In this document: positions 3,018-58,029 of the stretch, piece after piece | How positions within the stretch are numbered: the first letter of the stretch is position 1 | Layout of the letters: every line of letters begins with the position of its first letter | Notes under the pieces: model-generated | Told to the model about the DNA's origin: nothing | The model's input: the letters and a program-made list of their open reading frames with translations, nothing else | Databases searched by the model: none | Translations under genes and position numbers: made by a program | NCBI GenBank assembly: GCA_032622095.1 | Contig: CP136061.1 | Location: 4,706,505-4,770,504, forward strand | Length of the DNA: 64,000 nt | Reading direction: 5' to 3' | Source of the DNA: Siphonodentalium dalli | Taxonomy: Eukaryota > Mollusca > Scaphopoda > Gadilida > Siphonodentaliidae

Positions 3018-3124
3018 TGGAAAGTTGTTTGATTTGTTCTCATAGTTTTATATTCCAATCATTATTTGAAGTGGAATTGCTTTTTAGAACAAATCTTAAT
3101 ATTTACCTTCTATGGGTCAAGTAT

Positions 3125-3138
3125 TCGAACTGAAATGA
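3125..3138. repeat. Target site duplication of SINE (one side)
   Basis: The 14-bp sequence TCGAACTGAAATGA is repeated exactly at 3447-3460, flanking the SINE at 3139-3446. This is the expected signature of LINE-mediated retroposition, and the lack of decay suggests a fairly recent insertion. Confidence 0.9.
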
Positions 3139-3446: not shown

Positions 3447-3460
3447 TCGAACTGAAATGA
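3447..3460. repeat. Target site duplication of SINE (other side)
   Basis: Exact copy of the 14-bp sequence at 3125-3138. Confidence 0.9.
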
Positions 3461-3734
3461 CAACCATTGGAAAGTATATATATTAGATGGGTGTTAGGTT
3501 GGCAAGTTCGGAATATTCACATGTGTTATGTACCAGATGGAAAATTTCATCTCGGCTTGCAATGTTCGGTCTGGTTGGCGTAAACAATAATTTATTCCAA
3601 ATCAAATTAAGTATATTTCCACTAAACATAAAACAATACATACACAACAGTCTATGCGCGAACGATTGGATAGCGCAAAATACTTAATCGGGTTTCATGA
3701 TTAGATAGCGGTTGGTATTAAATCACAAAACCAC

Positions 3735-4265
3735 GTGGCACGCGCGGAATTGTTGCAAGATAAAATAACACCCGGGAAAAATGAACTAATTCCTTATGTT
3801 ATCACCAAAAATCCGAATCATCCGAATATCGTACAAACAGCTCGTTCGCTAATACCAATGCTACACAAGAGTCCCAAGGTGAGGGATTTAGTTAAGTGTG
3901 ACGATATTTTGATGCGCAAACGGCAACCGAAATATATTCTTAAATTCCTCACAAAGGCACGATTCGACATGGGAAAACCTGCCGAGTACATGGTTACTAA
4001 ATGTGGAGACTCTCATTGTGGGACATGCGCGCACATAACAACTGGGAACAAATCAGACTGATAAATGGAACGATTGTTAAACCAAATGCTGATATGAACT
4101 GCAAATCTCGCAATTTGATATATTGAATCCAGTGCTCTACATGCCGTGAATCTTACACATGTCAAACCGGAAATCAGCTGACAGAACGAATGATAGTTCA
4201 TCGTCAGCAAATCCGTGAAAAAGAACTGCGACAAATTCCCCTCAGTAAGCATTTAGATGTCTGTG
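3735..4265 (+). pseudogene. Penelope-like retroelement fragment, 3' end
   Basis: The first 327 bases are open and encode a peptide typical of the region after the reverse transcriptase in Penelope-like elements. It has the PYVITKNPNHPNI signature, then a basic segment ending TKCGDSHCGTC, a CxxC knuckle. The frame breaks at 4062 by a 1-bp deletion. It resumes in another frame with NLIY, one stop, CSTCRESY and then YTCQTGNQLTERMIVHR, which resembles the GIY-YIG endonuclease core with its R...H pair. The YIG motif itself is degraded to YTC. The reverse transcriptase core is missing upstream. The first codon is not ATG. Family assignment rests on motifs; it is clearly non-functional. Confidence 0.72.
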
Positions 4266-17930: not shown

Positions 17931-18664
17931 GCCAGTACTTCGTCCGGGCTTTGACCTTGAATTGTCCATTTTGAAGGTCAAGTGGGGTCACGATTTGACC
18001 AGTCCAAAACACTGCCCGACAAAAGTACCAGACAAACGTGCCAGTCGAAATATATCCGGTTTTACCCGATTTGACCTTGAATTGATCATTTTGAATGTCA
18101 AGGTCAGGTCGGGGTCACGATTTGACCCATCCAAAACACTCAATGGACAAAAGTAACCCTATGTATAAAATTTCGTCGAAATCCCATCAAAATTGGCGAT
18201 TTTACCTTGAATTGACCCGATTTCAAGGTCAAGGTCACGTCGTACGGGCAAATGAATATGCTTATGAGACTCCCCATACGAAAGTTCCCCCACATACCAA
18301 GTTTCATCGAAATCCCGTGATATTCGGGCGTTTGACCTTGAAATCACCCGATGTCAATATCAAGGTCACGTCGCACGGGCAAATTAATAGGTTTAGGCCA
18401 CTCCCCACCCGAAGGTCCCCCCACATACCAAGTTTCATCGAAATCCCGTTATATTCGGGCGTTTGACCTTGAAATTACCCGATTTCAAGGTCAAGGTTAC
18501 GTCGCACGGGCAAATTAATAGGCCCATGTCACTCCCCGGCCGAAAATACCCACACATACCAAGTTTCATTGAAATCGGCTCGGCCGTCTTTGAGTCCATC
18601 GATTACAGACAGACACACACACAGACACACACACACACAGATCTTCCAAAAATATATAATAGAT
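17931..18664 (+). repeat. Five ~130-bp tandem units with TCAAGGTCA motifs (left arm)
   Basis: Units begin with TTTGACCTTGAA or a variant at about 17949, 18069, 18202, 18330 and 18462. Each also carries TTTCAAGGTCAAGGTCACGT and ACCAAGTTTCATCGAAATCC. The arm ends in a CA/CAGA-rich microsatellite at 18608-18640. The mirror-image arm is at 19334-20063. The repeated TCAAGGTCA is identical to the extended half-site bound by ERR/FTZ-F1-type nuclear receptors, but here it is part of a repeat and no function is implied. Confidence 0.85.
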
Positions 18665-19291
18665 ACTAGCAGGTTAGCCCGCCACTGGCGGCAATAGTCA
18701 GAAACATGACAATTTTAATTTAATTTTTTGTTTTTCAATGTGTTAATTTTTTTTGTTTTTCAATGAGTTAATTGTGCCTTTTTAATTTTTTAATTGAATT
18801 TTTTGTTTTTAAATTTTACCCGATTTTTTTTGGTTTTTCAATGAGTTAATTGTGCCTTTTTAATTTTGTTTTTCAATTTTACCCGATTTTTTTTGTTTTT
18901 CAATGAACCCGTCCATGACACTTCCCGTATTTAGCAAGTTTGAGCTCAATCGGTTCAAGTCAATAAAGGACACACACATATATATGACACTTCCCGTAGG
19001 TAGCAAGTTTGAGCTCAATCGGCATTCCCTGGGATTTCCCAGTCAATATTTAGCAAGTTAGAGCTCAATCGGTTCGAGTCTATAAAGGATACACTCATAT
19101 ATATGACACTTCCCATAGGTAGCAAGTTTGAGCCCAATCGGCATTCCCTGGAATGTCCCAGTCACCAACGCGGCGTAATTTTGGTACATATATAGAGACC
19201 AATTGTCCATCGGCTGTCATGTGTAGTAAAGATGCCGTGGGGATGCCCGTTCCTACACGCGTTTTCGATTCTATGAAGTACCCACATATAT

Positions 19292-19333
<42 letters not shown>
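18665..19333. repeat. Spacer with nested short repeats and TA microsatellite
   Basis: It begins ACTAGCAGGTTAGCCCGCC, also found at 21304. T-rich sub-repeats follow, with GAGTTAATTGTGCCTTTTTA (18715-18905). Then come four partial copies of a unit containing TAGCAAGTTTGAGCTCAATC (18910-19145). A (CA)n(TA)n microsatellite lies at 19283-19337. No coding capacity is convincing. Confidence 0.75.
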
Positions 19334-19337
<4 letters not shown>

Positions 19338-20085
19338 ATTATATATTTTGGAAGATATGTGTGTCTGGGTGTCTGTCTGTGTGTCTGTCTGTGTGTTCGC
19401 GATGAACTCGAAAACGGCCAACCCGATTTCTATGAAACTTGGTATGTGGGGGTATTTTCGGCCGGGAACGAACATAGGCATATTAAGTTGTCCGTGCGAC
19501 GTGACCTTGACCTTGAAATCGGGTAATTTCAAGGTCAAACGCCCGAATATCACGGGATTTCGATGAAACTTGGTATGTGTGGGTATCTTCGGCCGGGGAG
19601 TGGCATAAACGTATTAATTTGTCCGTGCGACGTGACCTTGACCTTGAAATCGGGTCATTTCAAGGTCAAATGCCAAATATTACGGGATTTCAATGAAACT
19701 TGATATGCGGGGGTACATTCGTATGGGGAGTCTCATAAGCATATTCATTTGACCGTGCGACGTGACCTTGAAATCGGGTCAATTCAAGGTCAAATCGCCA
19801 ATTTTGATGGGATTTTGACGAAATTTGATACATGGGTGTACTTTTGTCAACTGCGTGTTTTGGACGGGTCAAATCGTGACCCCGGCCTGACCTTGACCTT
19901 CAAAATAATAAATTCAAGGTCAAATCGGGTAAAACCGGATGGATTTCGACGGGCACATTTGTCGGGTACTTTTGTTCGGGCAGTGTTTTGGACTGGTCAA
20001 ATCGTTACCTCAACTGACCTTGACCTTAAAAATGGTCAATTCAAGGTCAAAGCCCGGACGAAGTCGGGTCACCTTCTAGTATATA
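19334..20085 (-). repeat. TCAAGGTCA tandem array (right arm, inverted)
   Basis: Reverse-complement counterpart of 17931-18664, with about five units (GTGACCTTGACCTTGAAATC at about 19500, 19630 and so on) and a GTCTGTCTGTGTGT microsatellite. The outer end continues further than the left arm, to GACCCGACTTCGTCCGGGC on the reverse strand next to a TA run at 20078-20105. With the left arm it makes an imperfect inverted repeat of about 2.1 kb. Confidence 0.85.
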
Positions 20086-22659: not shown

Positions 22660-24993
22660 GGTGGGTGTTTGGTCAAAGAGGCAAAAACAAACGTATTTTT
22701 TACAACCTCATGCAATTGTTTTTACCAAAGACCGTTTGTGCCCGTATTTGACATTTTTAACAGTTTAAAACATATTATATCGGTAAACAAAAACCTAAAA
22801 CATATTATATCAGTAAACAAAAACCACATATTAATGTTACTGGGAGCTCGTATGGACATTAGTGGCTACGCCATGTTGCAGATGGGACGTTGAGGTGAAA
22901 AAAGTTCCTCACAGAAGGTGTATGAACTCTTTGACGGTTCAGCAAACCATAATGTGCATGCTATAGATACATTCAAGGAAATATATTGATGAACCATTCT
23001 TTTTGTCTAACGTTCTGTTGTTTTATTTTTTGTTTGGAAATTGTTGGAATCCAATGGCTCGTTTAAAATGTCGTATGTACGAATGCTCGTGTTATACATC
23101 TGTAACATATGTTCAACCGTTACCAGGAACCACACTGCATGGACCAAAATACCGTTACCAGGAACCACACTGCAAGGTCCAAAATGTATTATGGCCAAAT
23201 GCAAATATTGTGTGGCAAATGATAGCTGGTCGAAGTTAAGGGGTTAATGGACAGACCTGGAACTATGGTGCCGGACATTTGCAGAATAACTCCACATAGG
23301 TTGAATTTAGTGACCTTACAGCGGGATATCATAACTAAATGCACTCTCTGTGGCCTCATTATGCGTATGCCTTCTTCTCTCTGCTAAGTATGTTTATCAA
23401 ATCAACAAGATGTTTAGTTACTTCTAAGAATCTTTTTATTTTCAGTTTAGTTTCTCTATACCCTCCAAATCGGCAGACGATACATTGCATAAGTCTAGGT
23501 CGCCCATATCAGATGAGGCCATGCAGAATGAGGTCCCCGGAGGATGAATTTGGTGACGCTAGCCCGCTGTGTGGGGTGGATTTACTAAATTAATTCTACA
23601 AATGACTGGCACCATAATCTCATGCCTGTTTTATGGAACATTTGATTTGACAGTTGCCAATGGCCAATTCAAAGATGCATTATCCATCGAAACAAAACTT
23701 GTGGATTCAGATAATCAACATGTAACGCATCTGCAGATGTCATGAACTGAAATGACAATTAATTAATCCCGATGAGGCCATAATTTGACCTCGATCCGGT
23801 GGATTATAATAAAACATTTAAACAAATCACTCACCAATATAACGATATAATGTATACATAAACTTGTGGACACCCATTCGGCGTGAAGCACTCCACTCGA
23901 TCTTTCCGACCATTCCATGCGCTTTGTGCCCAACTACTCTCTATGTGTCGACACCATGAACGAAAAGGGGTTGATATGATAACACCACCAGCATCCCATT
24001 GGACGGTGTCAAATGTTCAAATATATAACTATATATTAACTCCCTTAAACCATTTTTTACTAAATATTCATTGACAAGTAGTTCCCTTGTGAAATGTTCA
24101 GATAATAAGTTCGACGAACTACCAAGAACTGATTGTTATTAATTAATATAAATTATTTTGAACTTGTATTTTCATTTTGTATGTCTGTCGTCTGCTTACG
24201 ATTCCTGAACACCCCTCCGAATGAATAATAGACCCTTCGAATGTATACTTGTTATAACCGATGGGATCATCCATTTAGTCTAGAAAGGTTTACACCTGAC
24301 AAACTCATGGACATTATATATGCACCCAGTCCCATACCTTTGGATAAAATTTCCTGTTTCCCCAAGCTTTCTAACAGTTTTGAATGTCCAATTTGACATC
24401 CACAATGGTTTACATTTCCAAACTGATGGCAGTTCCAGCCCAAAAACTTGAACGAAACTATGAAAATATTCGGCTTTTGATCTAAAAGCGAAATTATTTC
24501 ACACGAATTAGTGGTTGGAAATTATATCAGGCATGTCATTTTCAAGTGTTGAACATTTGGAATAGTTGAGACACCCAACTACCTGTCGCAAAATCCCTTT
24601 ATATTGTGTCCCGTGGCTGCATGCAAAATGTTATCAAAGATATATCAAGCAAGTATCAGGTTAGCCAATATATTAACATGTCATAGGAAGTAGCCTGCTA
24701 AATTCGTCACCTGTGTTTTTAGCATTATTTGTCATCGGCATATAATTAGGTTGACGGTCGGGAGGGGGGGGGGGTCGGCTACCCAAAACTGGAAATGGGA
24801 GTTTCGGTCGTTCGAGGTTAATTCTAATCGTATATAGGTTGATTGTTGAACTTATTATCTGAACATTTCCCACCGTTGATGTGAATAATCCGGCAATTTT
24901 ATTTTTTCCTGGTTATCGTCTGTTTTTATAACCTGAACACCCCTCCAAATATAATACTTTTCCAATGTGTTCTTTTATTTCTCCCAAAAGGGT
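22660..24993. repeat. 2.35-kb segmental duplication, copy A
   Basis: It matches 25951-28310 throughout in direct orientation, at an estimated several percent divergence by eye. Shared landmarks include CTGGGAGCTCGTATGGACAT (22840), a CCGTTACCAGGAACCACACT minisatellite (two copies here) and a G-run at about 24765. A duplicated TAAAACATATTATATC stretch at 22767-22815 is specific to this copy. The small open frames it contains are broken differently in the two copies, so I do not call a gene. Confidence 0.92.
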
Positions 24994-25950
24994 GATATTA
25001 ATATTGAACCTGTTAATATTTTACCCGGGTCTCGCGGTTTACCAACACGAGTAGACGTTTGCCCGGAATTGCCATTGGTTTTCTTTGTTATCATATTGAA
25101 TCATATGAAACCAACTCCCGAATCGCATATAATACCAGCCCAGATTTATTGACAGGGCGCCAATTACTAGCGTAACTATAAATCACCGGGGACAGCCCGG
25201 ATCAGCTGGGATCCGAATCAGCCCAGACCAGCCCCATGCTGTATATGCGGGATTTTAAAGATCATCACAGTGCGGGATCGCACGAAAACACACACATGAC
25301 TGAAACGACGATAAACATAAACAAACCAAACCATAATGTAAGCCTGCTTACCGGGTTACCATATGACTGGACCAACGATATACCCCAAACCATAATGTGA
25401 TCCTGCTTACAGGGTGCCATGACAGGACCAACAATATACCCCAAACCATAATGTGGTCCAGCTTACCGGGTACCATATGTCTGGCCCAAGTATATACCCC
25501 AAACAATAAGATGCTGCGTTGTTATCTTGTCCTGATGATGCCGGGGTCAAGGCTGTTAGGAAACTGTCAAATTCCGGAGAGCCCACCCCACGATAGCTTT
25601 ATATATATAGCAGGATCGTTTAATCAGACTTGAAACAAACTAAACATTAATTAGTTGCGAATATTTATGCAGACAATTAACCTTGCTCAACCATTCATGG
25701 CGGGAGATGCACTGGCGCAGCATTAAAGGTCTTGTGCCAGTGCATTATCTTATATTATGCGAGTCTCTCATAGATAGCTTCGCATTTATGAGAGAATGCA
25801 CTGGCTTACATGGTAAAGGTAACATGTGTTATTCCTGTATGAACACCTCAACGGAATCATGGCAATATAAGTTATTTTCATAAATTTGATATCATATAGT
25901 CATAAAACAGCGTCATTCTTATAAAAAATCCCAGGCATATTATTTTATTC
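24994..25950. other. Spacer between duplicates; three ~57-bp tandem units
   Basis: 25325-25505 has three units starting CCAAACCATAATGT, each with a CTTACCGGGT-like segment and ending near ATATACC. The rest holds no recognised feature. Confidence 0.7.
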
Positions 25951-28310
25951 GGTGGGTGGTCAAAGAGGCAAAAGAGGCAAAAACAAACGTATATTTTACA
26001 ACCTCATGCAATTGTTTTTACCAAAGACCGTTTGTGCCCGTATTTGACATTTTTAACAGTTTAAAACATATTATATCAGTAAACAAAAAACACATATTAA
26101 TGTTACTGGGAGCTCGTATGGACATTAGTGGCTACGCCATGTTGCAGATTGGACGTTGAGGTGAAAAAACTTCCTCACAGAAGGTGTATGAACTCTTTGA
26201 CGGTTCAGCAAACCATAATGTGCATGCTATAGATACATTCAAGGAAATATATTCATGAACCATTCTTTTTGTCTAACGTTCTGTGGTTTATTTTTTGTTT
26301 AGAAATTGTTGGAATCCAATGACTCGTTTAAAATTTCGTATATACGAATGCTCGTGTTATACATCTGTAACAGAGGTTCAACCGTTACCAGGAACCACAC
26401 TGCATGGACCAAAATACCGTTACCAGGAACCACACTGCAAGGTCCAAAATACCGTTACCAGGAACCACACTCCAAGGTCCAAAATGTATTATGGCCAAAT
26501 GCAAATATTGTGTGGCAAATGATAGCTGGTCGAAACTAAGGGGTTAATGGACAGGCCTGGAACTATGGTGCCGGACATTTGCAGAATAACTCCACATAGG
26601 TTGAATTTAGTGATCTTACAGCGGGATATCATAACTAAATGCACTCTCTGTGTCCTCATTATGCGTGTGCCTTCTTCTCTCTGCTAAGTATATTGATCAA
26701 ATCAACAAGATGTTTAGTTACTTCTAAGAATCTTTTTATTTTTAGTTTAATTTCGCTATACCCTCCAAATCGGCAGACGATACATTGCATAAGTCTAGGT
26801 CGCCCATATCAGATGAGGTCATGCAGAATGAGGTCCCCGGAGGATGAATTTGGTGACGCTAGCCCGCTGTGTGGGGTGGATTTTCTAAATTAATTCTACA
26901 AATGACTGGCACCATAATCTCATGCCTGTTTTATGGAACATTTGATTTGACAGTTGCCAATGGCCAATTCAAAGATGCATTATCCATCGAAACAAAACTT
27001 GTGGATTCAGATAATCAACCTGTAACGCATCTGCAAATGTCATGAACTGAAAGGACAATTAACTAATCCCGATGAGGCCATAATTTGACCTCGATCCGGT
27101 GGATTATAATAAAACATTAAAACAAATCACTCACCAATATAATGATATAATGTATACATAAACTTGTGGACACCCATTCGGCGTGAAGGACTCCATCGAT
27201 CTTTCCGACCATTCCATGCGCTTTGTGCCCAACTACTCTCTATGTGTCGACATCATGAACGAAAAGGGGTTGATATGATAACACCACCAGCATCCCATTG
27301 GACGGTGTCAAATATTCAAATATATAACTATATATTAACTCCCTTAAACAATTTTTTACTAAATACTCATTGACAAGTAGTTCCCTTGTGAAATGTTCAG
27401 ATAATAAGTTCGACGAACTACCAAGAACTGATTGTTATTAATTAATATACATTCTTTTGAACTTGTATTTTCATTTTGTATGTCTGTCGTCTGCTTACGA
27501 TTCCTGAACACCCCTCCGAATGAATAATAGACCCTTCCAATGTATACTTGTTATAACCGATGGGGTCATCCATTTAGTCTAGAAAGGTTTACACCTGACA
27601 AACTCATGGACAGTATATATGCACCCAGTCCCATACTTTTGGTTATAATTTCCTGTTTCCCCAAGCTTTCCAACAGTTTTGAATGTCCAATTTGACATCC
27701 ACAATGGTTTACATTTCAAACTGATGGCTGTTCCAGCCCAAGAACTTGAACGAAACTATGAAAATATTCGGCTTTTGATCTAAAAGCGAAATTATTTCAC
27801 ACGAATTAGTGGTTGGAAATTACAGATGATGTTATATCAGGCATGTCATTTTCAAGTGTTGAACATTTGGAATAGTTGAGACACCCAACTACCTGTCGCC
27901 AAATCCCTTTATATTGTGTCCCGTGGCTGCATGCAAAATGTTGTCAAAGATATATCAAGCAAGTATCAGGTTAGCCAATATATTAACATGTCATAGGAAG
28001 TAGCCTGCTAAATTCGTCACCTGTGTTTTTAGTATTATTTGTCATCGGCATATAATTAGGTTGACGGTCGGGGGGGGGGGGGGGGGGGGGGTCGGCTACC
28101 CAAAACTGGAAATGGGAGTTTCGGTCGTTCGAGGTTAATTCTAATCTTATATAGGTTCATTGTTGAACTTATTATCTGAACATTTCCCACCGTTGATGTG
28201 AACAATCCTGAAATTTTATTTTTTTCCTGGCTATCGTCTGTTTTTATAACCTGAACACCCCTCCAAATATAATACTTTTCCAATGTGTTCTTTTATTTCG
28301 CCCAAAAGGG
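25951..28310. repeat. 2.35-kb segmental duplication, copy B
   Basis: Partner of 22660-24993. It has three units of the GTTACCAGGAACCACACTGC minisatellite (26380-26480) where copy A has two. The G-run at 28070-28091 is about twice as long as in copy A. Homology ends at about 28310, just after CCCAAAAGGG. The microsatellites vary faster than the surrounding sequence. Confidence 0.92.
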
Positions 28311-44335: not shown

Positions 44336-46201
44336 GCTGAGGACAACCAGATCAGAATATTAAGAAAAACGCGCGCGATATCAGTGCACTGCACGCGATG
44401 TAGACCGATGCGCGATTAAAAAACAGACGTAATACACATACATAAATATAATTAAATAAAGTGAAGTCAGTGAAGTGGAGATATTTTTTACATGTAGTCA
44501 TTGTGCCATCATGGGCGAAGATATGGGTGGGCAATATGTCTATGACAAGACCATTATTAGAGTGGTGGTAATCAAGTAACAACATATGTCGTAACACGTG
44601 GTTATGTTATGAAAATCAGAACGGGGGGGGGTGTAAAGGGCAGTCAATCAAATCATTTGTTATATTTAGAAGCCAGTGGTGTACATGTAAACAATTAACT
44701 GTAACAGTAATGCCGATGGTATGACCATTATTGGAGTGGTGGTAACGAAGTAAGGATATATGTCGTAAACGTGGCTATACACTGTCGCGGTAATGTTGTA
44801 AAATCCTGAATGGGGCGGGGGGGGGGGGGGGGGGGGGGTTGTAGCCAACCAGATATCTAAGTTGGCAATTTGGTACCAGTTTATATGGTATGGAATTACA
44901 ATTATTGATCAGATATGGATATGCAACAATAATATATACATGTTATTAAACGCAACTATACTGTCACGAAAAGCTTAAGTATATACACATAACTATACAG
45001 TGGGGATAAGGGTGGGATGGGTTATGGAAGGGCCGTGGATTAGTATTGATTTCCATGTAATTTGCGTTGAATGCGGTGCACATTCAATCAAATGGTCTCT
45101 CATCAAATGTTAATAATAACTATATTTAGTTACTTAGGTTTACTCGTTTAATAGAACCGATGTAGACGAGGGTATCTCATATATGAATGAAATTTAAGTG
45201 TAAATTGCGATATTGAATAAATCTAATTCTAAGTTACCTTATGTGAATGCATGCCATAGTATTATATAGACAATGTAGATTCCGTCATCCCTGTCATTCG
45301 AATTATTTCTGTGTATCTATCTTATATACATGTGCACAATATTCAGAAATCAACGAACACACGCAGCCCAACTCCGCGGATCCATGGCAGCAAATGATTT
45401 CAAACGATACTTGTTGACGCACGTAATGACGTAGTTAAACGTAAAGCAAGTCGCGCGATTGAATGACGTCATAGTCAACAGGTGCTTGGCGTGGCAGGGC
45501 TGTATACATATGCCTGTGGGGAGGGGGATCATAGGGGGCTTCAGCAAGGATAGATATCCATGATTGATAGAATTTGTCTGGTCAACAGTACTATTGTGCA
45601 TGCATGGCATTAAATGCATGGTACCATGACTGTACTGTCGTGGTAATAGTTATGAAACGGGAGGGGTAGCTAAAATTTCTTTATAATCTGATAGGTATCA
45701 TGACGTTTAGATCATGATTGATATAAAATATTATCGTTTCAACAGTAATATTATGCATGTATGGCATAGCAAGGTACCATGACTGAACTGTCGTGGTACG
45801 AGTTATGAAACAGGAGGGGGTAGCTAAAATTTCCACACCAGTCCTGACTCAAACACCAAACCAAGGAATAGTAATTGATGTCATGATGAGTGTAGACACG
45901 AAAGTAAGCAAAGAAATGTTTAAAATTTGAACATGTCATGTGCCGTGAATATATCATAGAAAGCTTGTTAAAGGTATATGAAACGCGGACAGTGGGTAAT
46001 ATCCGGGTGGGGTGGGGGTGGCTGTGGATATAGTATCGTTAATTAGATGATAATAATAGTCAACAGTTTCTTATTGGAACAGGGTAATATATATATATTT
46101 GAAATAGGCAATATATTATATAGAGTAATGAAACAATTTTTTAAATGTACAGTATATATAAAATAGGTTGTCGTTTGTTGGAACCCCCCCCCCCCCCCGC
46201 C

Positions 46202-49702: not shown

Positions 49703-49711
49703 AACCAGATC
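49703..49711. repeat. 9-bp target site duplication, left
   Basis: AACCAGATC, single in the uninterrupted copy (44345-44353) and repeated at 58021-58029. The following AGAATA matches both the element end and the target, so a longer duplication of up to 15 bp cannot be excluded. Confidence 0.85.
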
Positions 49712-50045
49712 AGAATAGCCGTCTCGTTACCTTCACATCTAAAAATAGAATCTTTGGGTCTAAAATTGGTTGTGGGTGTCTCGTTCGCCTCACATCTCAA
49801 AATAGAATCTTTGGGTCTAAAATTGTTTGAGGGTAAATTGTTTGAGGGTAAAATTTTTTGTACTAAAATATTCTCAAAACTTCCAAAATATCAAAACCCA
49901 AAACTTCCAAAATTTCAAAACCCAAAACTTCCAAAATTTCAAAACCCAAAACTTATTTTTCCAAAACAAAAAATTTCAAAACCCCAAAACTTCCAAAAGA
50001 AAAAAATTCAAAACCCCCAAAATTATTTCTCTAAAAAAAAAGTTT
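49712..50045. repeat. Element terminus with ~24-bp minisatellite (left)
   Basis: It contains two related blocks with AATAGAATCTTTGGGTCTAA and three to four units of CTTCCAAAATTTCAAAACCC plus AAAA, ending in A-runs. The mirror is 57662-58020. A/T-strand asymmetry (C/A on one strand) is strong. The frames across it are low-complexity. Confidence 0.85.
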
Positions 50046-50664
50046 AAATAAAAAATTTATAACGAGTTTTCGGTTTCTGATAATCTCGATATTAAAATGT
50101 CGAATGTTTATAAATAGCTTTATACCAATTATATGTGTATGGACAGGTCCGAGTCGCTGTAATGTTGGGCATTGTGAGACAGGTGTGTATTATCGTGAAT
50201 TATTGGAAGTATTGAGATGTACTATGTTGAATCACGAGTGGACGAAAAGGGTAATGTGAAATTACAACCCCCAGAATGAATTGTCATATTCGATGGAACA
50301 TATTGTCAAGTATGTACACACGACATTGTGGGTAACAATGTGTCTTTCACACCTTGCTTTACCAAATGAATTCTATTATATTCCCGTTCACAATTATATG
50401 CCATTCAGAAAACATATCGATTTAATGTCTGAGCAGTATTAGTTGTTTAACGGGTTAGTATCAATTAAGGTTGATAAACTGTGTCATTGTTAGCATTAAC
50501 ACGATAATTAGTTATCCAAAACATGCATACATAATACGTCCAGGTCACTCAATAATAGAAATTGCTTCGGTGTCATTGTTATAACAACATTACGTAATAA
50601 CCACTTATCATTCCATTCACACTTACGCTCATTTTGTATACCAAAAATTTCAATATAATGAAGA

Positions 50665-50702
50665 TGACGAAAAGTTACCTATAATTCTGCTGTGGTTAAG
50701 CC

Positions 50703-50741
<39 letters not shown>

Positions 50742-50880
50742 GTCACCAAGCGACATAACATCCTGCTTTGATGATCCAATGGCCAATGTCCATGAAGATT
50801 TTATTTCCGATGCAAGTCATATTTCCGACTAACTCCTGAAAAGTTACCTATAATTCTGCTGTGGTTAAGCAGTCCATTAT
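50665..50880 (+). pseudogene. Displaced gene fragment in outer left arm
   Basis: A (CAA)n tract (50704-50741), then TCACCAAGCGACATAACATC and sequence encoding MANVHEDFI, copied from the start of the ATPase gene. It is bounded on both sides by GAAAAGTTACCTATAATTCT (50671 and 50839), which also lies next to the element centre. It reads opposite to the left-arm gene. A mirror copy sits at 56845-57040, so the event predates, or was homogenised with, palindrome formation. Confidence 0.85.
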
Positions 50881-51179
50881 TTAGGGCATACCTGTATGTA
50901 GGCCTACCAGTGGATGAATAGTCTGCCGGAGAAGTACTGTGTAGACAGGTCTTGTCGGTAAGAGAGTCAGACGAGAAGTGAAGGCTCGGCTATTAAAACA
51001 TAGTAATGCGATAGCGAACATCAAACGAGTCTGCGCACGCATATCTGTCAAATGATACAATGGCAGTCATTGGTCAATTTATCCCCGGTGTCAGCTCAGT
51101 ACAATAGCAGTCATTGGTCAATTTATCCCCGGTGTCAGCTCAGTACACAATCGGCACGAAGCCGGAGGTCATAATTACT

Positions 51180-51610
51180 CTTACGAATGAAGAGCGTTGA
51201 ACATATACGAAATTATTACACGAATGAACTGAAATTTATATTTCACATCTTACCAACAACAGATACAGACATAGTCATAGTGTTATACTATCTTACATGT
51301 ACCCATGCTATGACATCATTCGAAGGGGCAATACACTCAAGGAGTTAAAGTGACACGAAACAAGGGACGTGATGTAATATTGGTGTATGAATCTTAAAGG
51401 AACACAAGACACTCTAAAGGGACACTCATTATGAATGATTGTTAACAATACAAGCGCACGAATGAAGAGCGTTGAACATATACGAAATTACTACACGAAT
51501 GAACTGAAATTTATATTTCACATCTTACCAACAACAGATACAGACATAGTCATAGTGTTATATTATCTTACATGTACCCATGCTATGACATACTTAAAGG
51601 GGGATAATGC
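51180..51610. repeat. Direct repeat pair, ~275-bp period (left arm)
   Basis: GAATGAAGAGCGTTGAACAT starts at about 51186 and 51461, and each copy runs about 140 bp to CCATGCTATGACAT. The mirror pair lies at about 56100-56250 and 56400-56540. The flanks include paired GACACGAAACAAGGGACGTG/GACACGAGGTAAGGGACGTT stretches. Confidence 0.85.
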
Positions 51611-51759
51611 ACACACGGTGTGTGGAATGTTAAAGTGACACGAGGTAAGGGACGTTATGTAATATTGGTGTGTGAATATTAAAGGAGCATTCTCGCTATA
51701 CAAACCCCCCTCCCCAGTTATAGATATATAACGAAGACGAGAATAACATGTTGATGAAG

Positions 51760-51765
51760 TTTATT
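51760..51765 (-). terminator. Poly(A) signal, left-arm gene
   Basis: AATAAA on the minus strand, 5 nt after the stop codon of the left-arm C-terminal frame. The right arm has the same arrangement. The tight spacing is typical of compact viral or transposon genes. Confidence 0.6.
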
Positions 51766-51770
51766 GAAAT

Positions 51771-52610
51771 TTAATCATTGTCTGAATCTTCGACCGTTAG
51801 ATTTACTTCTAAGAGTTTCTTGAATTTTCTCATCGCTTCATCTGCAGCCCATTCATTATTATATCCGCGTTTGGTCAGTTTGACCATTTTCTTCATGATC
51901 GTGTTATGTATGGGTGATGTTTTCAATCGATACTGGTATTCTATTAATCGTCTATAACTTTTGAGAAACAGAACAAACTCTGTGTCGATGGTATCCTCTT
52001 TTCCCGACATGCTCTCATCTCCCGAAATGCTCTCTTCTTCTTTCACATCATTGGTGACGCGTTTCATCATACTTTTGAATGTGTCCATCTCGTTGACACA
52101 TCGCGCAGCTTTCTTAAGACCGAATACCGTTCTACTACCGACGACATTACCATCTTTTGAATCTGATAGCGTTCCTCGTTCATCTTCATCTGTATCTTCT
52201 CCGAAGAGAGTTGTTTTTGTCTCGGACATAGCTCCGTGTTCATCCGGGTCCTCAGTTAATTTTCGTTTTAACTTATTTTCTTGACACCAGTGTCTCTGAA
52301 CATCATAATGATCTGCGAACAAAAGCCCGCATTCATTACAAGGGTACGACATGTCTTCTCGAATGTCTATACGTTTCTTCTTATTAATTTCATCGAGCTC
52401 ACCAGGTGGCCGTATGTCGTTAGTATAGTCATTATGTTGACCCTGGGGCACAATATAATTATATGTTATGCCCTTCTGTTGACCAGGGAGTTCTCTGTCA
52501 TCGTATTTCATCGCATTCTGTTGACCCTGGGTCTCAGTGTCTTTTGTATGTTTTTTCATCCCATTCTGTTCATCTGGGTGTTCTCTGTCTTTTTGGAGAT
52601 TATATTTCAT
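51771..52610 (-). pseudogene. Left-arm C-terminal half of ATPase gene (out of frame)
   Basis: 279 open codons corresponding to the part of the right-arm protein after about residue 218: the glutamine-rich linker, the second finger and the charged tail ending VEDSDND. It is separated from the ATPase half by a 1-bp deletion near 52693 (an AAAA run in the right arm is AAA here). A 9-bp deletion removes three residues between the finger's third and fourth ligands (HWC here versus H-x4-C in the right arm), which should disable the finger. Confidence 0.9.
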
Positions 52611-52648
52611 GCCATTCCATTCACCCCTATGTTGGTTCGTGTCCTCTT

Positions 52649-53300
52649 TTAGTACATTCTGTCGCAGACGTAATGTGTCCGGTGTTGCGGCTTTAAATCC
52701 ACCAGTAGGTAACCGTACGGTTCACTCGTCGCTTCCGAAAACTCTCGAACCATACGCTGAGGACATTCAGGATACATCTGTCTTGATAATGTTGAAATTA
52801 ATCCCTTGTCGATTGGGTTATTGAACAATACCAAATATTGACAATTTCGTCGTTGCGTTGGATCTTTGTTGTAGTAGAAATTCTGGTTCAAACTTATCAA
52901 AGATAAGTTCAAATGGTGACTTCCTTCGGAATGCAAATCATTAACTCTCTGGTCTTTTGATGAAGTTTGCATCAAGTCATCGAGTATAACTAGATTTTTA
53001 TACCGGGGGTTGATAAGCGAATCCAAGTTTGCTGGTATTCCTCGTATAAAGTTGACCTGAGGGGTGACGGTATACTTTAATTCGTCATATAGGGGCTGAC
53101 AATATTTATAAAACCATATTATTCTGTCAGGTGCGGGTGATATTTTTGAGGCAGACTTTTGTAGTAAGGTTTTCACGAAGTATGTCTTACCACAAGATGT
53201 CGGTCCACTTACACATGCCGTGAATGGATGCTTGAAAATAAAATCTTCATGGACATTGGCCATTGGATCATCAAAGCAGGATGTTATGTCGCTTGGTGGC

Positions 53301-53376
<76 letters not shown>

Positions 53377-53390
53377 GGGGGTGATGATAC

Positions 53391-53423
<33 letters not shown>

Positions 53424-53545
53424 GGCTGATTATACTGTTGTTGTTGTTGTTGTTGTTCTGAAGGCGTGTGTTTAACTTTGATATGACGCTTCAAACTATC
53501 TTGCCAAGCATAGACACTTAAGCACTCTTCACATTGATACTTCAT
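52649..53545 (-). CDS. Left-arm C2H2 finger-polyQ-P-loop ATPase, truncated by frameshift
   Basis: 298 codons from ATG at 53545. Residues 5-26 form a C2H2 finger (C5, C8, H21, H26). Residues about 32-83 are glutamine-rich, broken by YNQP and YHHP. From residue 95 comes the ATPase: Walker A GPTSCGKT (114-121), Walker B ILDDLM, the sensor-like LISLNQNFYY, then NCQYLVLFNNPIDKG and EPYGYLLVDL. This order is typical of A32-like/FtsK-HerA packaging ATPases of eukaryotic DNA viruses and virus-like transposons. A 1-bp deletion replaces the C-terminal half with 13 aberrant residues. It could still give a finger-plus-ATPase protein. The (CAA)n tract is longer than in the right arm. Confidence 0.85.
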
Positions 53546-53817
53546 TTAACTAGTTCAGGCTGTCGTTCACAACGTCTCTTAGTGTTGTTTGTACTGGATA
53601 CAAATTTATCACATTAGCTACAATACAACCTACCTATCCAAATGTCAATGCAATTATGAGTGATTTCAATATGAACACTCTATTATATAGATATGTGTAA
53701 CCTGGTGACTGACATGATGATACAGTTATGCACTAAATAATGGACTGCTTAACCACAGCAGAATTATAGGTAACTTTTCAGGAGTTAGTCGGAAATATGG
53801 CTTGTTGCCATTCATCG

Positions 53818-53893
53818 GAAAGCTCTCGCCGCCGGCGGCGGCGGCGCCGGCGGCGGCGGCGGCGGCACCACCGCCGCAGTAAAATACCGCAAT

Positions 53894-53924
<31 letters not shown>

Positions 53925-53945
53925 GCGAGAGCTTTCCGATGAATG
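53818..53945. repeat. GC-rich central hairpin of the palindrome
   Basis: AGCTCTCGCCGCCGGCGGCG on the left pairs with CGCCGGCGGCGAGAGCT on the right, with (GGC)n/(GCC)n stems. The only clearly unpaired part is a loop of about 26 bp around 53868-53893 (CACCACCGCCGCAGTAAAAT and following). The surrounding 8 kb is AT-rich, so this GC block is exceptional. Both arms' genes begin 330 bp or less from it and point away from it. Confidence 0.9.
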
Positions 53946-54208
53946 GCAACAAGCCATATTTCCGACTAACTCCTGAAAAGTTACCTATAATTCTGCTGTG
54001 GTTAAGCAGTCCATTATTTAGTGCATAACTGTATCATCATGTCAGTCACCAGGTTACACATATCTATATAATAGAGTGTTCATATTGAAATCACTCATAA
54101 TTGCATTGACATTTGGATAGGTAGGTTGTATTGTAGCTAATGTGATAAATTTGTATCCAGTACAAACAACACTAAGAGACGTTGTGAACGACAGCCTGAA
54201 TTAGTTAA

Positions 54209-54334
54209 ATGAAGTATCAATGTGAAGAGTGCTTAAGTGTCTATGCTTGGCAAGATAGTTTGAAGCGTCATATCAAAGTTAAACACACGCCTTCAGAACA
54301 ACAACAACAACAACAACAGTATCATCAGCCATAA
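54209..54334 (+). pseudogene. Right-arm N-terminal finger, cut off by a stop codon
   Basis: ATG at 54209 starts the same C2H2 finger as the left arm (ligands C5, C8, H21, H26) and enters the polyQ tract. CAA has become TAA at 54332-54334 (codon 42), a single C-to-T change. The downstream frame stays open and in register, so the full right-arm gene would otherwise be 54209-55945. Confidence 0.9.
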
Positions 54335-54368
54335 CAACAACAACAACAACAACAGTATCATCACCCCC

Positions 54369-54405
<37 letters not shown>

Positions 54406-54442
54406 GCCACCAAGCGACATAACATCCTGCTTTGATGATCCA

Positions 54443-55945
54443 ATGGCCAATGTCCATGAAGATTTTATTTTCAAGCATCCATTCACGGCATGTGTAAGTG
54501 GACCGACATCTTGTGGTAAGACATACTTCGTGAAAACCTTACTACAAAAGTCTGCCTCAAAAATATCACCCGCACCTGACAGAATAATATGGTTTTATAA
54601 ATATTGGCAGCCCCTATATGACGAATTAAAGTATACCGTCACCCCTCAGGTCAACTTTATACGAGGAATACCAGCAAACTTGGATTCGCTTATCAACCCC
54701 CGGTATAAAAATCTAGTTATACTCGATGACTTGATGCAAACTTCATCAAAAGACCAGAGAGTTAATGATTTGCATTCCGAAGGAAGTCACCATTTGAACT
54801 TATCTTTGATAAGTTTGAACCAGAATTTCTACTACAACAAAGATCCAACGCAACGACGAAATTGTCAATATTTGGTATTGTTCAATAACCCAATCGACAA
54901 GGGATTAATTTCAACATTATCAAGACAGATGTATCCTGAATGTCCTCAGCGTATGGTTCGAGAGTTTTCGGAAGCGACGAGTGAACCGTACGGTTACCTA
55001 CTGGTGGATTTAAAAGCCGCAACACCGGACACATTACGTCTGCGACAGAATGTACTAAAAGAGGACACGAACCAACATAGGGGTGAATGGAATGGCATGA
55101 AATATAATCTCCAAAAAGACAGAGAACACCCAGATGAACAGAATGGGATGAAAAAACATACAAAAGACACTGAGACCCAGGGTCAACAGAATGCGATGAA
55201 ATACGATGACAGAGAACTCCCTGGTCAACAGAAGGGCATAACATATAATTATATTGTGCCCCAGGGTCAACATAATGACTATACTAACGACATACGGCCA
55301 CCTGGTGAGCTCGATGAAATTAATAAGAAGAAACGTATAGACATTCGAGAAGACATGTCGTACCCTTGTAATGAATGCGGGCTTTTGTTCGCAGATCATT
55401 ATGATGTTCAGAGACACGTAAAAAACTGGTGTCAAGAAAATAAGTTAAAACGAAAATTAACTGAGGACCCGGATGAACACGGAGCTATGTCCGAGACAAA
55501 AACAACTCTCTTCGGAGAAGATACAGATGAAGATGAACGAGGAACGCTATCAGATTCAAAAGATGGTAATGTCGTCGGTAGTAGAACGGTATTCGGTCTT
55601 AAGAAAGCTGCGCGATGTGTCAACGAGATGGACACATTCAAAAGTATGATGAAACGCGTCACCAATGATGTGAAAGAAGAAGAGAGCATTTCGGGAGATG
55701 AGAGCATGTCGGGAAAAGAGGATACCATCGACACAGAGTTTGTTCTGTTTCTCAAAAGTTATAGACGATTAATAGAATACCAGTATCGATTGAAAACATC
55801 ACCCATACATAACACGATCATGAAGAAAATGGTCAAACTGACCAAACGCGGATATAATAATGAATGGGCTGCAGATGAAGCGATGAGAAAATTCAAGAAA
55901 CTCTTAGAAGTAAATCTAACGGTCGAAGATTCAGACAATGATTAA
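54443..55945 (+). CDS. Right-arm A32-like P-loop ATPase with C2HC finger
   Basis: 500 codons from the first ATG after the polyQ stop. Residues 1-191 are the ATPase: Walker A GPTSCGKT (20-27), Walker B ILDD (93-96), LISLNQNFYY (122-131), NCQYLVLFNNP (140-150) and PYGYLLVDL (182-190). Residues about 215-290 are a hydrophilic linker with a loose repeat (GQQNAMKY, GQQKGITY, GQHNDYTN). Residues 309-330 form a C2HC finger (C309, C312, H325, C330). The rest is acidic, then basic, ending VEDSDND. Such ATPases power DNA packaging into capsids; no capsid gene is present here. Whether translation starts at 54443 in nature is unknown. Compared with the left arm, W replaces C at residue 55. Confidence 0.88.
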   Translation: MANVHEDFIFKHPFTACVSGPTSCGKTYFVKTLLQKSASKISPAPDRIIWFYKYWQPLYDELKYTVTPQVNFIRGIPANLDSLINPRYKNLVILDDLMQTSSKDQRVNDLHSEGSHHLNLSLISLNQNFYYNKDPTQRRNCQYLVLFNNPIDKGLISTLSRQMYPECPQRMVREFSEATSEPYGYLLVDLKAATPDTLRLRQNVLKEDTNQHRGEWNGMKYNLQKDREHPDEQNGMKKHTKDTETQGQQNAMKYDDRELPGQQKGITYNYIVPQGQHNDYTNDIRPPGELDEINKKKRIDIREDMSYPCNECGLLFADHYDVQRHVKNWCQENKLKRKLTEDPDEHGAMSETKTTLFGEDTDEDERGTLSDSKDGNVVGSRTVFGLKKAARCVNEMDTFKSMMKRVTNDVKEEESISGDESMSGKEDTIDTEFVLFLKSYRRLIEYQYRLKTSPIHNTIMKKMVKLTKRGYNNEWAADEAMRKFKKLLEVNLTVEDSDND

Positions 55946-55950
55946 ATTTC

Positions 55951-55956
55951 AATAAA
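55951..55956 (+). terminator. Poly(A) signal, right-arm gene
   Basis: AATAAA five bases after the TAA stop at 55943-55945, mirrored at 51760-51765. Confidence 0.6.
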
Positions 55957-56039
55957 CTTCATCAACATGTTATTCTCGTCTTCGTTATATATCTATAAGT
56001 GGGGAGGGGGGTTTGTATAGCGAGAATGCTCCTTTAATA

Positions 56040-56550
56040 TTCACACACCAATATTACATAACGTCCCTTACCTCGTGTCACTTTAACATTCCACACACCG
56101 TGTGTGCATTATCCCCCTTTAAGTATGTCATAGCATGGGTACATGTAAGATAATATAACACTATGACTATGTCTGTATCTGTTGTTGGTAAGATGTGAAA
56201 TATAAATTTCAGTTCATTCGTGTAGTAATTTCGTATATGTTCAACGCTCTTCATTCGTGCGCTTGTATTGTTAACATTCATTCATAATGAGTGTCCCTTT
56301 AGAGTGTCTTGTGTTCCTTTAAGATTCATACACCAATATTACATCACGTCCCTTGTTTCGTGTCACTTTAACTCCTTGAGTGTATTGCCCCTTCGAATGA
56401 TGTCATAGCATGGGTACATGTAAATTAGTATAACACTATGACTATGTCTGTATCTGTTGTTGGTAAGATGTGAAATATAAATTTCAGTTCATTCGTGTAA
56501 TAATTTCGTATATGTTCAACGCTCTTCATTCGTAAGAGTAATTATGACCT
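56040..56550. repeat. Direct repeat pair in right arm (mirror of 51180-51610)
   Basis: Two copies of the ATGTCATAGCATGGGTACAT to GTTCAACGCTCTTCATTCGT block, start-to-start about 275-280 bp. Small differences from the left arm exist (for example AATTAGTATAAC against a transition in the left copy). Confidence 0.85.
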
Positions 56551-56844
56551 CCGGCTTCGTGCCGATTGTGTACTGAGCTGACACCGGAAATAAATTGACC
56601 AATGACTGCTATTGTACTGAGCTGACACCGGGGATAAATTGACCAATGACTGCCATTGTATCATTTGACAGATATGCGTGCGCAGACTCGTTTGATGTTC
56701 GCTATCGCATTACTATGTTTTAATAGCCGAGCCTTCACTTCTCGTCTGACTCTCTTACCGACAAGACCTGTCTACACAGTACTTCTCCGGCAAACTATTC
56801 ATCCACTGGTAGGCCTACATACAGGTATGCCCTAAATAATGGAC

Positions 56845-56974
56845 TGCTTAACCACAGCAGAATTATAGGTAACTTTTCAGGAGTTAGTCGGAAATATGAC
56901 TTGCATCGGAAATAAAATCTTCATGGACATTGGCCATTGGATCATCAAAGCAGGATGTTATGTCGCTTGGTGAC

Positions 56975-57010
<36 letters not shown>

Positions 57011-57040
57011 GGCTTAACCACAGCAGAATTATAGGTAACT
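56845..57040 (-). pseudogene. Displaced gene fragment in outer right arm
   Basis: Reverse-oriented counterpart of 50665-50880: (TTG)n tract at about 56977-57010, preceded by sequence complementary to the MANVHEDFI codons and bounded by AGAATTATAGGTAACTTTTC on both sides. Confidence 0.85.
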
Positions 57041-57661
57041 TTTCGTCATCTTCATTATATTGAAATTTTTGGTATACAAAATGAGCGTAAGTGTGAATGG
57101 AATGATAAGTGGTTATTACGTAATGTTGTTATAACAATGACACCGAAGCAATTTCTATTATTGAGTGACCTGGACGTATTATGTATGCATGTTTTGGATA
57201 ACTAATTATCGTGTTAATGCTAACAATGACACAGTTTATCAACCTTAATTGATACTAACCCGTTAAACAACTAATACTGCTCAGACATTAAATCGATATG
57301 TTTTCTGAATGGCATATAATTGTGAACGGGAATATAATAGAATTCATTTGGTAAAGCAAGGTGTGAAAGACACATTGTTACCCACAATGTCGTGTGTACA
57401 TACTTGAAAATATGTTCCATCGAATATGACAATTCATTCTGGGGGTTGTAATTTCACATTACCCTTTTCGTCCACTCGTGATTCAACATAGTACATCTCA
57501 ATACTTCCAATAATTCACGATAATACACACCTGTCTCACAATGCCCAACATTACAGCGACTCGGACCTGTCCATACACATATAATTGGTATAAAGCTATT
57601 TATAAACATTCGACATTTTAATATCGAGATTATCAGAAACCGAAAACTCGTTATAAATTTT

Positions 57662-58020
57662 TTATTTAAACTTTTTTTTTAGAGAAATAATTTTGGGGGT
57701 TTTGAAATTTTTTGTTTTGGAAGTTTTGGGGTTTTGAAATTTTTTGTTTTGGAAAAATAAGTTTTGGGTTTTGAAATTTTGGAAGTTTTGGGTTTTGAAA
57801 TTTTGGAAGTTTTGGGTTTTGATATTTTGGAAGTTTTGAGAATATTTTAGTACAAAAAATTTTACCCTCAAACAATTTACCCTCAAACAATTTTACCCTC
57901 AAACAATTTTAGACCCAAAGATTCTATTTTGAGATGTGAGGCGAACGAGACACCCACAACCAATTTTAGACCCAAAGATTCTATTTTTAGATGTGAAGGT
58001 AACGAGACGGCTATTCTTCT
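57662..58020. repeat. Element terminus with ~24-bp minisatellite (right)
   Basis: Inverse of 49712-50045, with GGTTTTGAAATTTTGGAAG units. Small indels separate the arms; for example this arm has one extra GGTTTTGAAATTTT stretch near 57735. It ends GGCTATTCTTCT at 58020. Confidence 0.85.
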
Positions 58021-58029
58021 AACCAGATC
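58021..58029. repeat. 9-bp target site duplication, right
   Basis: AACCAGATC, then AGAATATTAAG as in the uninterrupted copy at 44345 onward. Confidence 0.85.

Follow-up and report, generated by a model that had tools for sequence, protein, structure and literature searches.

Palindromic elements with Polinton ends in a scaphopod genome, probable self-complementary satellites

Within the window (the whole 64,000-nt stretch of Siphonodentalium dalli DNA analysed) a giant palindrome at 49709-58020 carries an ATPase gene of viral packaging type in each arm, and the question that it raises is what kind of element this is and how such a structure is copied. Its anatomy, in termini and target duplications, is that of Polinton-type integration. 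The favoured answer, which on comparison of sequences is likely, is a self-complementary, non-autonomous Polinton satellite that would be replicated by a helper through a snap-back form, like AAV snapback genomes.

The palindrome in the window

The palindrome is real. Its inverted arms span almost all of 49712-58017 in six pieces (1586 nt at 100% identity, 929 at 99%, 718 at 98%, 517 at 97%, 408 at 100% and 149 at 94%), as the near-total inverted repeat of the preliminary description had it, and two gene copies matching Pox_A32 (Pfam) flank the hairpin, in keeping with the duplicated ATPase gene read outward from a GC hairpin that was reported there (Table 1). The empty site nearby was also correctly recognised: it lies at 44345-44359, within another copy of the tandem unit, and this copy is 98-100% identical to both flanks. 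The duplication given as 9 bp is in fact 6 bp; the repeat at this site looks longer because the left tip is altered (ATC for AGA) and matches the target. The left terminal repeat (TIR) opens with 57-bp and 24-bp minisatellites.

Foldback reads and assembly artefacts can create palindromes. Here the chance of this is negligible: the palindromes terminate precisely at target duplications in 20/20 copies, rather than at a random read point, the arms differ from each other by a few bases, and the same variable letters occur at both ends in 41 of the 42 terminus pairs on contig C1. A genome search with the protein found ATPase matches on all nine contigs.

Apart from the ATPase gene, the ORF list of the window element contains nothing longer than 126 aa; there is no transposase ORF, no capsid gene and no ORF of the size of a Rep/NS1 endonuclease-helicase. 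PolB and rve integrase are absent from the window element and from another copy, L033 (ORF lists, Pfam), which have just the zinc-finger (ZF) ATPase or a finger plus tail. An Rfam search gave zero matches.

Table 1. Features of the window element and its target (window positions)
Feature	Positions	Strand	Remark
Empty site, single AACCAG, in neighbouring tandem unit	44345..44350	.	
Target-site duplication, left copy, AACCAG, 6 bp	49703..49708	.	
Palindrome left arm; first 3 bases altered, match target	49709..53860	.	
Left terminal repeat, ~1.2-1.3 kb; related to repeats of full-length Polintons	49709..51000	.	inner boundary approximate
Left ZF-ATPase gene, C-terminal piece (C2H2 finger, acidic/helical tail); frame broken relative to N-terminal piece	51771..52610	-	
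Left ZF-ATPase gene, N-terminal piece (C2H2 finger, poly-Q, A32-type ATPase)	52649..53545	-	Pox_A32 E 1.5e-6
Central GC hairpin; truncated form of the T-shaped centre of most other copies	53827..53925	.	folding z -15.7
Palindrome right arm	53894..58020	.	
Right ZF-ATPase gene, N-terminal zinc finger and poly-Q; severed by in-frame stop	54209..54440	+	
Right ZF-ATPase gene, ORF of 500 aa (A32-type ATPase with C2H2 finger and acidic/helical tail)	54443..55945	+	Pox_A32 E 8.4e-6
Right terminal repeat, end = ..CTATTCTTCT	56730..58020	.	inner boundary approximate
Target-site duplication, right copy, AACCAG, 6 bp	58021..58026	.	

Ends, size classes and hairpins across the genome

The many loci with the same termini that the preliminary description envisaged were found on searching the 2.23-Gb genome with protein and terminus; their duplications are of 6 bp, not the 9 bp that it expected. 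The exact terminus occurs at 536 + 511 sites (0 + 0 for the reversed control), and palindromic copies probably number hundreds. The copies used for duplications, arm comparison and TIR/core divergence were picked by protein similarity. All 20 in which both ends are covered have 6-bp target duplications, and with seven further elements, among them three normal Polintons and a 15.6-kb mirror, the count is 27/27 (L025, whose left end is cut off, is left out). Tips of the form AGAAGA(A)TAG..CTAT(T)CTTCT are present at both ends in 19/20 copies, the exception being the altered left tip in the window.

Terminus pairs of 16-17 kb on one contig are ordinary Polintons in all eight cases. One 16.2-kb copy has DNA_pol_B_2, an integrase with rve and chromo domains, a homologous ATPase and a sub-threshold adenain match; integrase copies scored (n=109) are 98-100% identical. 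The sole 16-kb relative read completely encodes an rve/chromo integrase, not a MULE-type DDE transposase (of the other 16-17-kb relatives, portions were read). In the Polinton L030, positions 1812-3798 are read as capsid genes, with no Pfam match, and the Polinton copies of this genome are presumably autonomous. Shorter pairs checked by sequence are palindromic past the terminal repeat in 13 of 15 cases, at 4.7-11.1 kb plus the single 15.6-kb case, which is a mirror of the Polinton's PolB side with its fold point within the mid-Polinton GC repeat. The exceptions are the 3.1-kb L031, whose arms of 1213 nt are of TIR length only, and a 13.5-kb pair, at the point tested.

The terminal repeats of the palindromes, at ~1.2 kb, are like those of the Polintons. 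That of palindrome L022 is 87.5-87.7% identical to those of Polintons L029 and L030 over ~1.2-1.3 kb, and that of Polinton L035 is 99.3% identical to that of palindrome L024 over 762 columns and at most 97.05% identical to those of three other Polintons. Between copies, chosen as they were by protein similarity, the terminal 1.3 kb differs by 4-6% and the core by 0.1-0.5%. The TIRs of the window element are 12-21% different from those of L022 (depending on alignment and region) and match each other, and for 38 of 40 arms the nearest or joint nearest relative is the partner arm of the same copy. In the chimeric copy L028 arm differences are nearly confined to the TIR and the 6-bp duplication is intact; the exchange therefore most likely predates integration. 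In three normal, non-palindromic Polintons the two ends match as well (98.7-100% across the part of the TIR that was compared). These alignments indicate that terminal repeats have been swapped among elements, the helper included, yet are alike on both arms of a copy. The shared ancestry of the core, and of the central hairpin common to L022 and L033, shows that palindrome lineages were amplified and that each copy was not formed anew.

The midpoint GC hairpin, which in the majority of copies has the T shape of a parvovirus ITR, has 230 genomic sites; within C1 pairs 12 of 14 lie at most 45 bp from the midpoint. The centres of L022 and L033 form a stem bearing two inner arms (DNA folding z -12.5 and -9.9). 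The arms of L033 include fragments both of the Polinton TIR and of the middle part of the helper. An intact T is not strictly required, because the B arm is missing in some copies (4/20: the window copy, L018, L023 and L024) and off-centre in others (L016 and L028). A flip/flop reading of the centre was dropped, as orientation within a palindrome merely records the direction of insertion.

The zinc-finger ATPase gene

In the window the right-arm gene is parted from its N-terminal zinc finger by an in-frame stop, and the left-arm ATPase frame breaks off after 298 aa. The satellite protein is not the helper's own ATPase but a diverged homologue of it (31% identity over 206 aa), and the gene reads inward from the TIR in L030 and outward in the palindromes. 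The family is conserved in bivalves, with P-loop G25/K26 and D95/D96 invariant across 16 sequences. Elsewhere its gene models continue into rve, chromo or adenain sequence, and in one contig it stands head-to-head with a PolB piece; of the Bathymodiolus pieces, one shows the polymerase by direct comparison and the other does not, with no polymerase match in Pfam for either. Neither a single protein nor an alignment retrieved a relative from viral contigs, and PHROGs gave no match for the ATPase. By sequence, three zinc-finger chains were the solved structures retrieved (E 0.1 to 0.97), and the AlphaFold model of the ATPase is weak (mean pLDDT 58), the P-loop core being best.

Phage satellites redirect packaging. 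By analogy, this second packaging ATPase, with DNA-binding fingers of its own, might fill helper capsids with satellite DNA, an extension that is rather doubtful. Its distance from the helper's homologue, the conservation and the gene associations just described speak for it, as does a frame open over 500 codons in 39/40 copies, though this openness and a dN/dS of 0.24 are biased because the copies were selected by protein similarity. Against it, dN/dS in the tail is ~0.5-1.0 (L022 or the window copy against L032 or L033, on few changes), and on both these grounds a reading of the satellite gene as strongly selected was dropped. Moreover, intact duplications accompany L033, which has just a finger-plus-tail ORF and repeat-derived frames (judged by eye), and L031, with no recognisable gene. 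The full combination, of germ-line snap-back satellites with a T-hairpin, protein-primed replication by a helper Polinton, TIR swaps and an ATPase steering helper capsids, is speculative and unlikely as a whole.

Replication by a helper and its alternatives

The 6-bp duplications, Polinton ends and shared TIRs argue for a non-autonomous Polinton satellite and against a new transposase class, and since palindromes can fold back on themselves a mode of copying is suggested. Polintons of the same genome would provide the rve/chromodomain integrase, which would account for the 6-bp duplications, and their protein-primed PolB would work at the AGAAGA tips. A displaced satellite strand, being nearly all self-complementary, could snap back to a duplex of ~4.2 kb, capped by the hairpin and with just one TIR origin, double-stranded, at the opposite end. 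From one priming event, copying would then run along an arm, turn through the hairpin and return, restoring the full palindrome. Differences between arms would be mismatches in this duplex, so that arms would remain equal even after TIR exchange with another element. A Polinton strand folding back, once apparently within the GC-rich repeat, would give a new palindrome. Helper dependence is part of this proposed scheme, as any packaging would be.

Of the identities first offered, a satellite of a virus-like element fits the Polinton termini, 6-bp duplications and ~1.2-kb terminal repeats in the same genome, and a linear replicon integrated as an inverted dimer is likewise well supported. A new element class set apart from Polintons by its duplication is wrong on the same three features. 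As a foldback or Mutator-like transposon with a 9-bp duplication, it could appeal to long inverted arms, subterminal minisatellites and the apparent 9-bp repeat at the window site alone. With 6 bp in 27/27 elements, a TIR common to PolB/integrase elements and a window element devoid of any transposase ORF, it has next to no probability.

The snap-back satellite has difficulties of its own. Chromosomal gene conversion could equally give arm equality in young copies, the copies behind the duplication, arm and core figures were selected by protein similarity, the palindrome does not reach past the TIR in two of the 15 shorter pairs, the B arm is missing or off-centre in the copies listed above, the centre of L032 has no such hairpin, and 6/20 in-range C1 hairpins fall outside the listed pairs. 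Static non-autonomous derivatives, formed once, moved as DNA by the helper integrase and gene-converted in the chromosome, would explain the common core ancestry and the hairpin common to L022 and L033. They are nonetheless improbable, given that the differing TIRs on a near-uniform core agree between the two arms of any one copy, that the arms of L028 differ almost solely in the TIR beside an intact duplication, and that the ends match in the three non-palindromic Polintons. An independent parvovirus-like rolling-hairpin replicon that borrowed just Polinton ends would suit a T-shaped centre like the AAV ITR in shape. This is very unlikely in view of the ORF contents of the window element and L033, and of the Polinton TIR and helper middle-region pieces inside the L033 arms.

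Vertebrate Mavericks, in the account cited, have tips of (AG)3 or (AGT)2 and perfect 6-bp duplications (PMC8097293). The satellites share with Polintons/Mavericks 5'-AG.. ends, a short tip repeat and long TIRs that a PolB/integrase element in this genome also has, but are palindromic past the TIR, with a central hairpin and their own zinc-finger ATPase per arm, and the window element lacks PolB, integrase and a capsid gene. AAV 5'-SBG and 3'-SBG are described as self-complementary halves of a linear genome that fold and replicate with helper functions (PMC8235507). As far as that description goes, the satellites are alike in self-complementarity, capacity to fold back and, presumably, helper use, whereas AAV snapback genomes are packaged subgenomes derived from a single-stranded DNA virus and the satellites occur integrated in animal DNA, linked to a protein-primed element. 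In bidnaviruses Polinton PolB/TIR replication meets parvovirus-like genomes, and in that account the repeats lack hairpins and PolB is present (PMC4061559), whereas the satellites resemble parvoviruses in hairpin shape only. The parvovirus/AAV T-hairpin shape is shared by L022 and L033, and is central in the integrated satellites and truncated in the window copy. Symmetric defective adenovirus genomes, in which one end of the genome is doubled as a mirror image bounded by identical ITRs, are not known to be integrated or to form a lasting gene-bearing lineage; the satellites are like them as mirror dimers but are integrated and gene-bearing. Foldback and Mutator-like elements (FARE, TU, Rehavkus) similarly have long arms and subterminal tandem repeats, but duplication length and termini differ.

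New here are palindromy as the usual form, the midpoint hairpin, TIR exchange with equal arms, the PolB-side mirror and the diverged ZF-ATPase. As far as we are aware, extrachromosomal replication of Polintons by protein priming has so far only been proposed, and mirror-image satellites offer a route to test it; Maverick virions are, in the account cited, unobserved so far (PMC8097293). Integrated mirror derivatives with swapped and equalised ends can be read much like fossils left by strands that were displaced, folded back and copied alongside a helper, and the 15.6-kb mirror reveals its own fold point. The small divergence among the sampled palindrome cores suggests recent activity, so that the system could be tested in living animals.

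Palindromic satellites and their termini

The element in the window is one of many palindromic, non-autonomous elements (satellites) that are derived from Polintons, with an architecture and a probable life cycle of their own. Its genome (2.23 Gb, nine contigs) has ATPase matches on all nine contigs; the 86 scored among 4882 candidates are 99–100% identical, and one of them has a stop. As read from the list, 34 head-to-head pairs account for 68 of these 86, and the remaining 18 have partners outside the scored set. Twenty of the pairs were retrieved as sequence, one (L025) cut off at its left end, which with the window element gives 20 elements complete at both ends, 8.2–9.9 kb long. The preliminary description looked to many loci sharing the same termini and 9-bp duplications. 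The many loci were found, with 536 forward and 511 reverse exact genomic sites for the terminus pattern AGAAGAATAGNNGNCTCGTTNNNNYCACA (reversed control 0 and 0), but the duplication is 6 bp, and perfect, in 20 of 20.

On contig C1, up to 205.5 Mb, 100 listed sites yielded 42 adjacent plus/minus pairs (84 sites) of 3.1 to 17.4 kb, the 16 excluded being seven clustered near 159.7 Mb, three near 98.4 Mb, five lone sites and the single site of the window. The termini have two short variable blocks, the rest being fixed; these are shuffled between elements and equal at the two ends of each. The variable letters agree at both ends in 41 of the 42 pairs, with 36 letter combinations and a chance match of 3%. 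In all eight pairs of 16.1–17.4 kb (five judged at one end or more from 151-nt pieces), one end is the ATPase/integrase side and the opposite end the PolB side. Palindromy beyond the terminal inverted repeat (TIR) is present in 13 of the 15 shorter pairs checked by sequence. It covers most of the length of L018, L019 (both picked via their ATPase), L032 and L033, and was found in nine of ten pairs sampled with 221-nt pieces lying 1.5 kb in from either end, seven of them at 100%. The 3.1-kb L031 is not palindromic beyond its TIR, its 1213-nt arms being TIR-length, and nor is a 13.5-kb pair at the point tested. Seven further pairs have a hairpin at their midpoint, judged from site positions.

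Helper Polinton and satellite ATPase

The 16.2-kb Polinton copy L029/L030, here termed the helper, has TIRs of 1162 bp (99.2% identical) and encodes DNA_pol_B_2, in separate frames, and an rve plus chromo integrase; an adenain match falls slightly below the cut-off. Some of its frames are read as capsid genes, by inspection, a Pfam search of those frames giving no match. The 109 integrase copies scored among 3631 candidates are 98–100% identical, six of them with one stop. Six of the 16 on C1 lie inside a listed pair, always one of 16–17 kb, and ten outside, six of these beyond the listed pairs. The helper's 221-aa ATPase, for which a Pox_A32 match is absent, is homologous to that of the satellites (31% identity over 206 aa, E 8e-30).

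In the satellite protein a C2H2 finger and poly-Q precede the A32-type ATPase, which is followed by another finger and an acidic/helical tail. Among copies selected by protein similarity, 39 of 40 are open across 500 codons, with a dN/dS of 0.24; the tail, on few changes, gives about 0.5–1.0 against 0.15–0.25 for the helper integrase. The named animals among the best 120 of 297 relatives are all bivalves (Pecten, Mizuhopecten, Pinctada, Solemya, Mytilus, Mya, Ruditapes, Mercenaria), and one relative among the matches listed, from a Sedimenticola MAG, is probably host DNA. Mya and Mytilus gene models fuse the ATPase gene into rve, chromo or adenain sequence. In a Bathymodiolus symbiont contig it lies head-to-head with a frame matching helper PolB at 35% (89 aa, E 3e-16); Pfam detected no polymerase in the pieces of this contig, and a second frame compared directly with helper PolB gave no match. 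Outside this genome the ATPase is therefore probably a Polinton gene. The gene content of L033 is one finger and the tail only, and L031 has no recognisable gene.

Unlike termini on a nearly uniform core

Each arm's own partner is its nearest, or joint nearest, relative for 38 of the 40 arms of the 20 elements, the exceptions being both arms of L028, and the median number of differences is 4 within a copy and 48 between copies. By region, differences within and between copies are 1.1% and 5.7% at 1–350 bp, 0.24% and 3.9% at 351–1300 bp, 0.15% and 0.48% in inner non-coding sequence and 0.05% and 0.14% in coding sequence. Unlike terminal repeats are therefore set on a nearly uniform core, the border being near 1.3 kb, and, judged by these comparisons, each palindrome seems to be rebuilt from a single arm. 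Between the window element and the palindrome L022, 100 of 842 compared bases differ in the first 1.2 kb and the remainder only slightly; the window element's own two TIRs differ at 5 of 963. In a second alignment, of 350–1150, its TIR is 79% identical to that of L022, the nearest being that of the Polinton L036 (84.8%). Another Polinton, L035, shares 99.3% TIR identity with the palindrome L024, against 97.05%, 93.6% and 87.8% with the Polintons L030, L034 and L036. From such resemblances TIR exchange seems to extend to the helper. In L028 the arm-to-arm differences are almost all in the TIR and the 6-bp duplication is intact, so that exchange most likely preceded integration and equalising followed it; this copy is likely an exchange caught ahead of equalising.

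Centres, fold points and the window site

The centre of L022 and of L033 is T-shaped: a stem bears two GC-rich arms on its inner side. The B-arm sequence occurs in 16 of the 20 elements (it is absent from L018, L023, L024 and the window element), at most 45 bp from the midpoint in 14 and off-centre in L016 and L028. It has 230 genomic occurrences (reversed control 0); 14 of the 20 in-range C1 sites are inside the 42 pairs, which occupy 0.21% of the span, and 12 of these 14 are within 45 bp of the midpoint. Against shuffled DNA, which any palindrome centre would beat, folding gives z of −12.5 for L022, −9.9 for L033 and −15.7 for the truncated centre of the window element. The centre of L032 is without such a hairpin and falls in the ATPase gene. 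Fold points, at which palindromes would arise, therefore vary: L032 folds within that gene, leaving a spacer of about 0.7 kb, whereas a 15.6-kb pair (C1:95377025) is centred within the GC-rich minisatellite found mid-Polinton. Both ends of this pair, which was read at its ends and centre, are of the PolB side (mutually 100% over 219 nt); its centre is palindromic (94.7% over 910 aligned positions), and it has a 6-bp duplication.

The AGAAGA tip is similar both to the tip repeat that lets adenovirus jump back during protein-primed replication (excerpts of PMC4974454) and to the (AG)3/(AGT)2 tips of Mavericks (excerpts of PMC8097293). A displaced palindrome strand could fold alone, without a partner strand; the resulting duplex would have a single origin and be closed by a hairpin. 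Such solo folding would account for one arm being remade from the other and suggests an advantage in replication. A documented parallel is provided by the snapback genomes of AAV (excerpts of PMC8235507). Protein priming, a snap-back intermediate, helper dependence and packaging are what we infer. A literature search, mainly of open-access work and with Repbase outside its scope, found no description of palindromic Polintons, and three Polinton papers do not contain the word stem ‘palindrom’ in their main text.

The window element is, as had been described, an inverted repeat except at its centre, with an outward-reading A32-type ATPase in both arms, and the reported empty site is kept in the adjacent unit of the tandem array. 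Its target duplication is AACCAG; the 9 bp reported earlier had seemed plausible because the left tip of this copy is altered and now matches the target.

Positions of the window element and of other features observed
Sequence	Position	Feature
Window	49709-58020	palindromic element
Window	43369-64000	large tandem array hosting the insertion and supplying the empty site; long stretches 98-99.7% alike; internal repeats ~0.8 kb
G000:C6	117566260-117576259	L028, chimeric palindrome; different TIR types per arm, core nearly identical
G000:C8	126358573-126361643	head-to-head ATPase pair; 71 bases separate the matched stretches; centre much shorter than in others
G000:C1	159746518-159783981	six plus-strand Polinton-type termini ~5.4 kb apart, followed by a single one on the minus strand; possibly a satellite amplified in tandem
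L029	7746-7950	G-rich minisatellite (GGGCGGGC..) close to the centre of the 16-kb Polinton; potential quadruplex; the 15.6-kb pair folds here
L033	1527-2080 and 7962-8499	minisatellite in both arms, translating as a repeated AHLLIFLLICSF-like peptide; frame unlikely to be a gene
Window	1-3017	68-bp satellite, ~45 copies, 91%
Window	17937-20064	further inverted repeat, arms ~740 nt at 88.5%, with 131-bp tandem repeats; may be an unrelated element of the foldback type
Window	22675-28310	~2.3-kb direct duplication, in pieces, 96-98%
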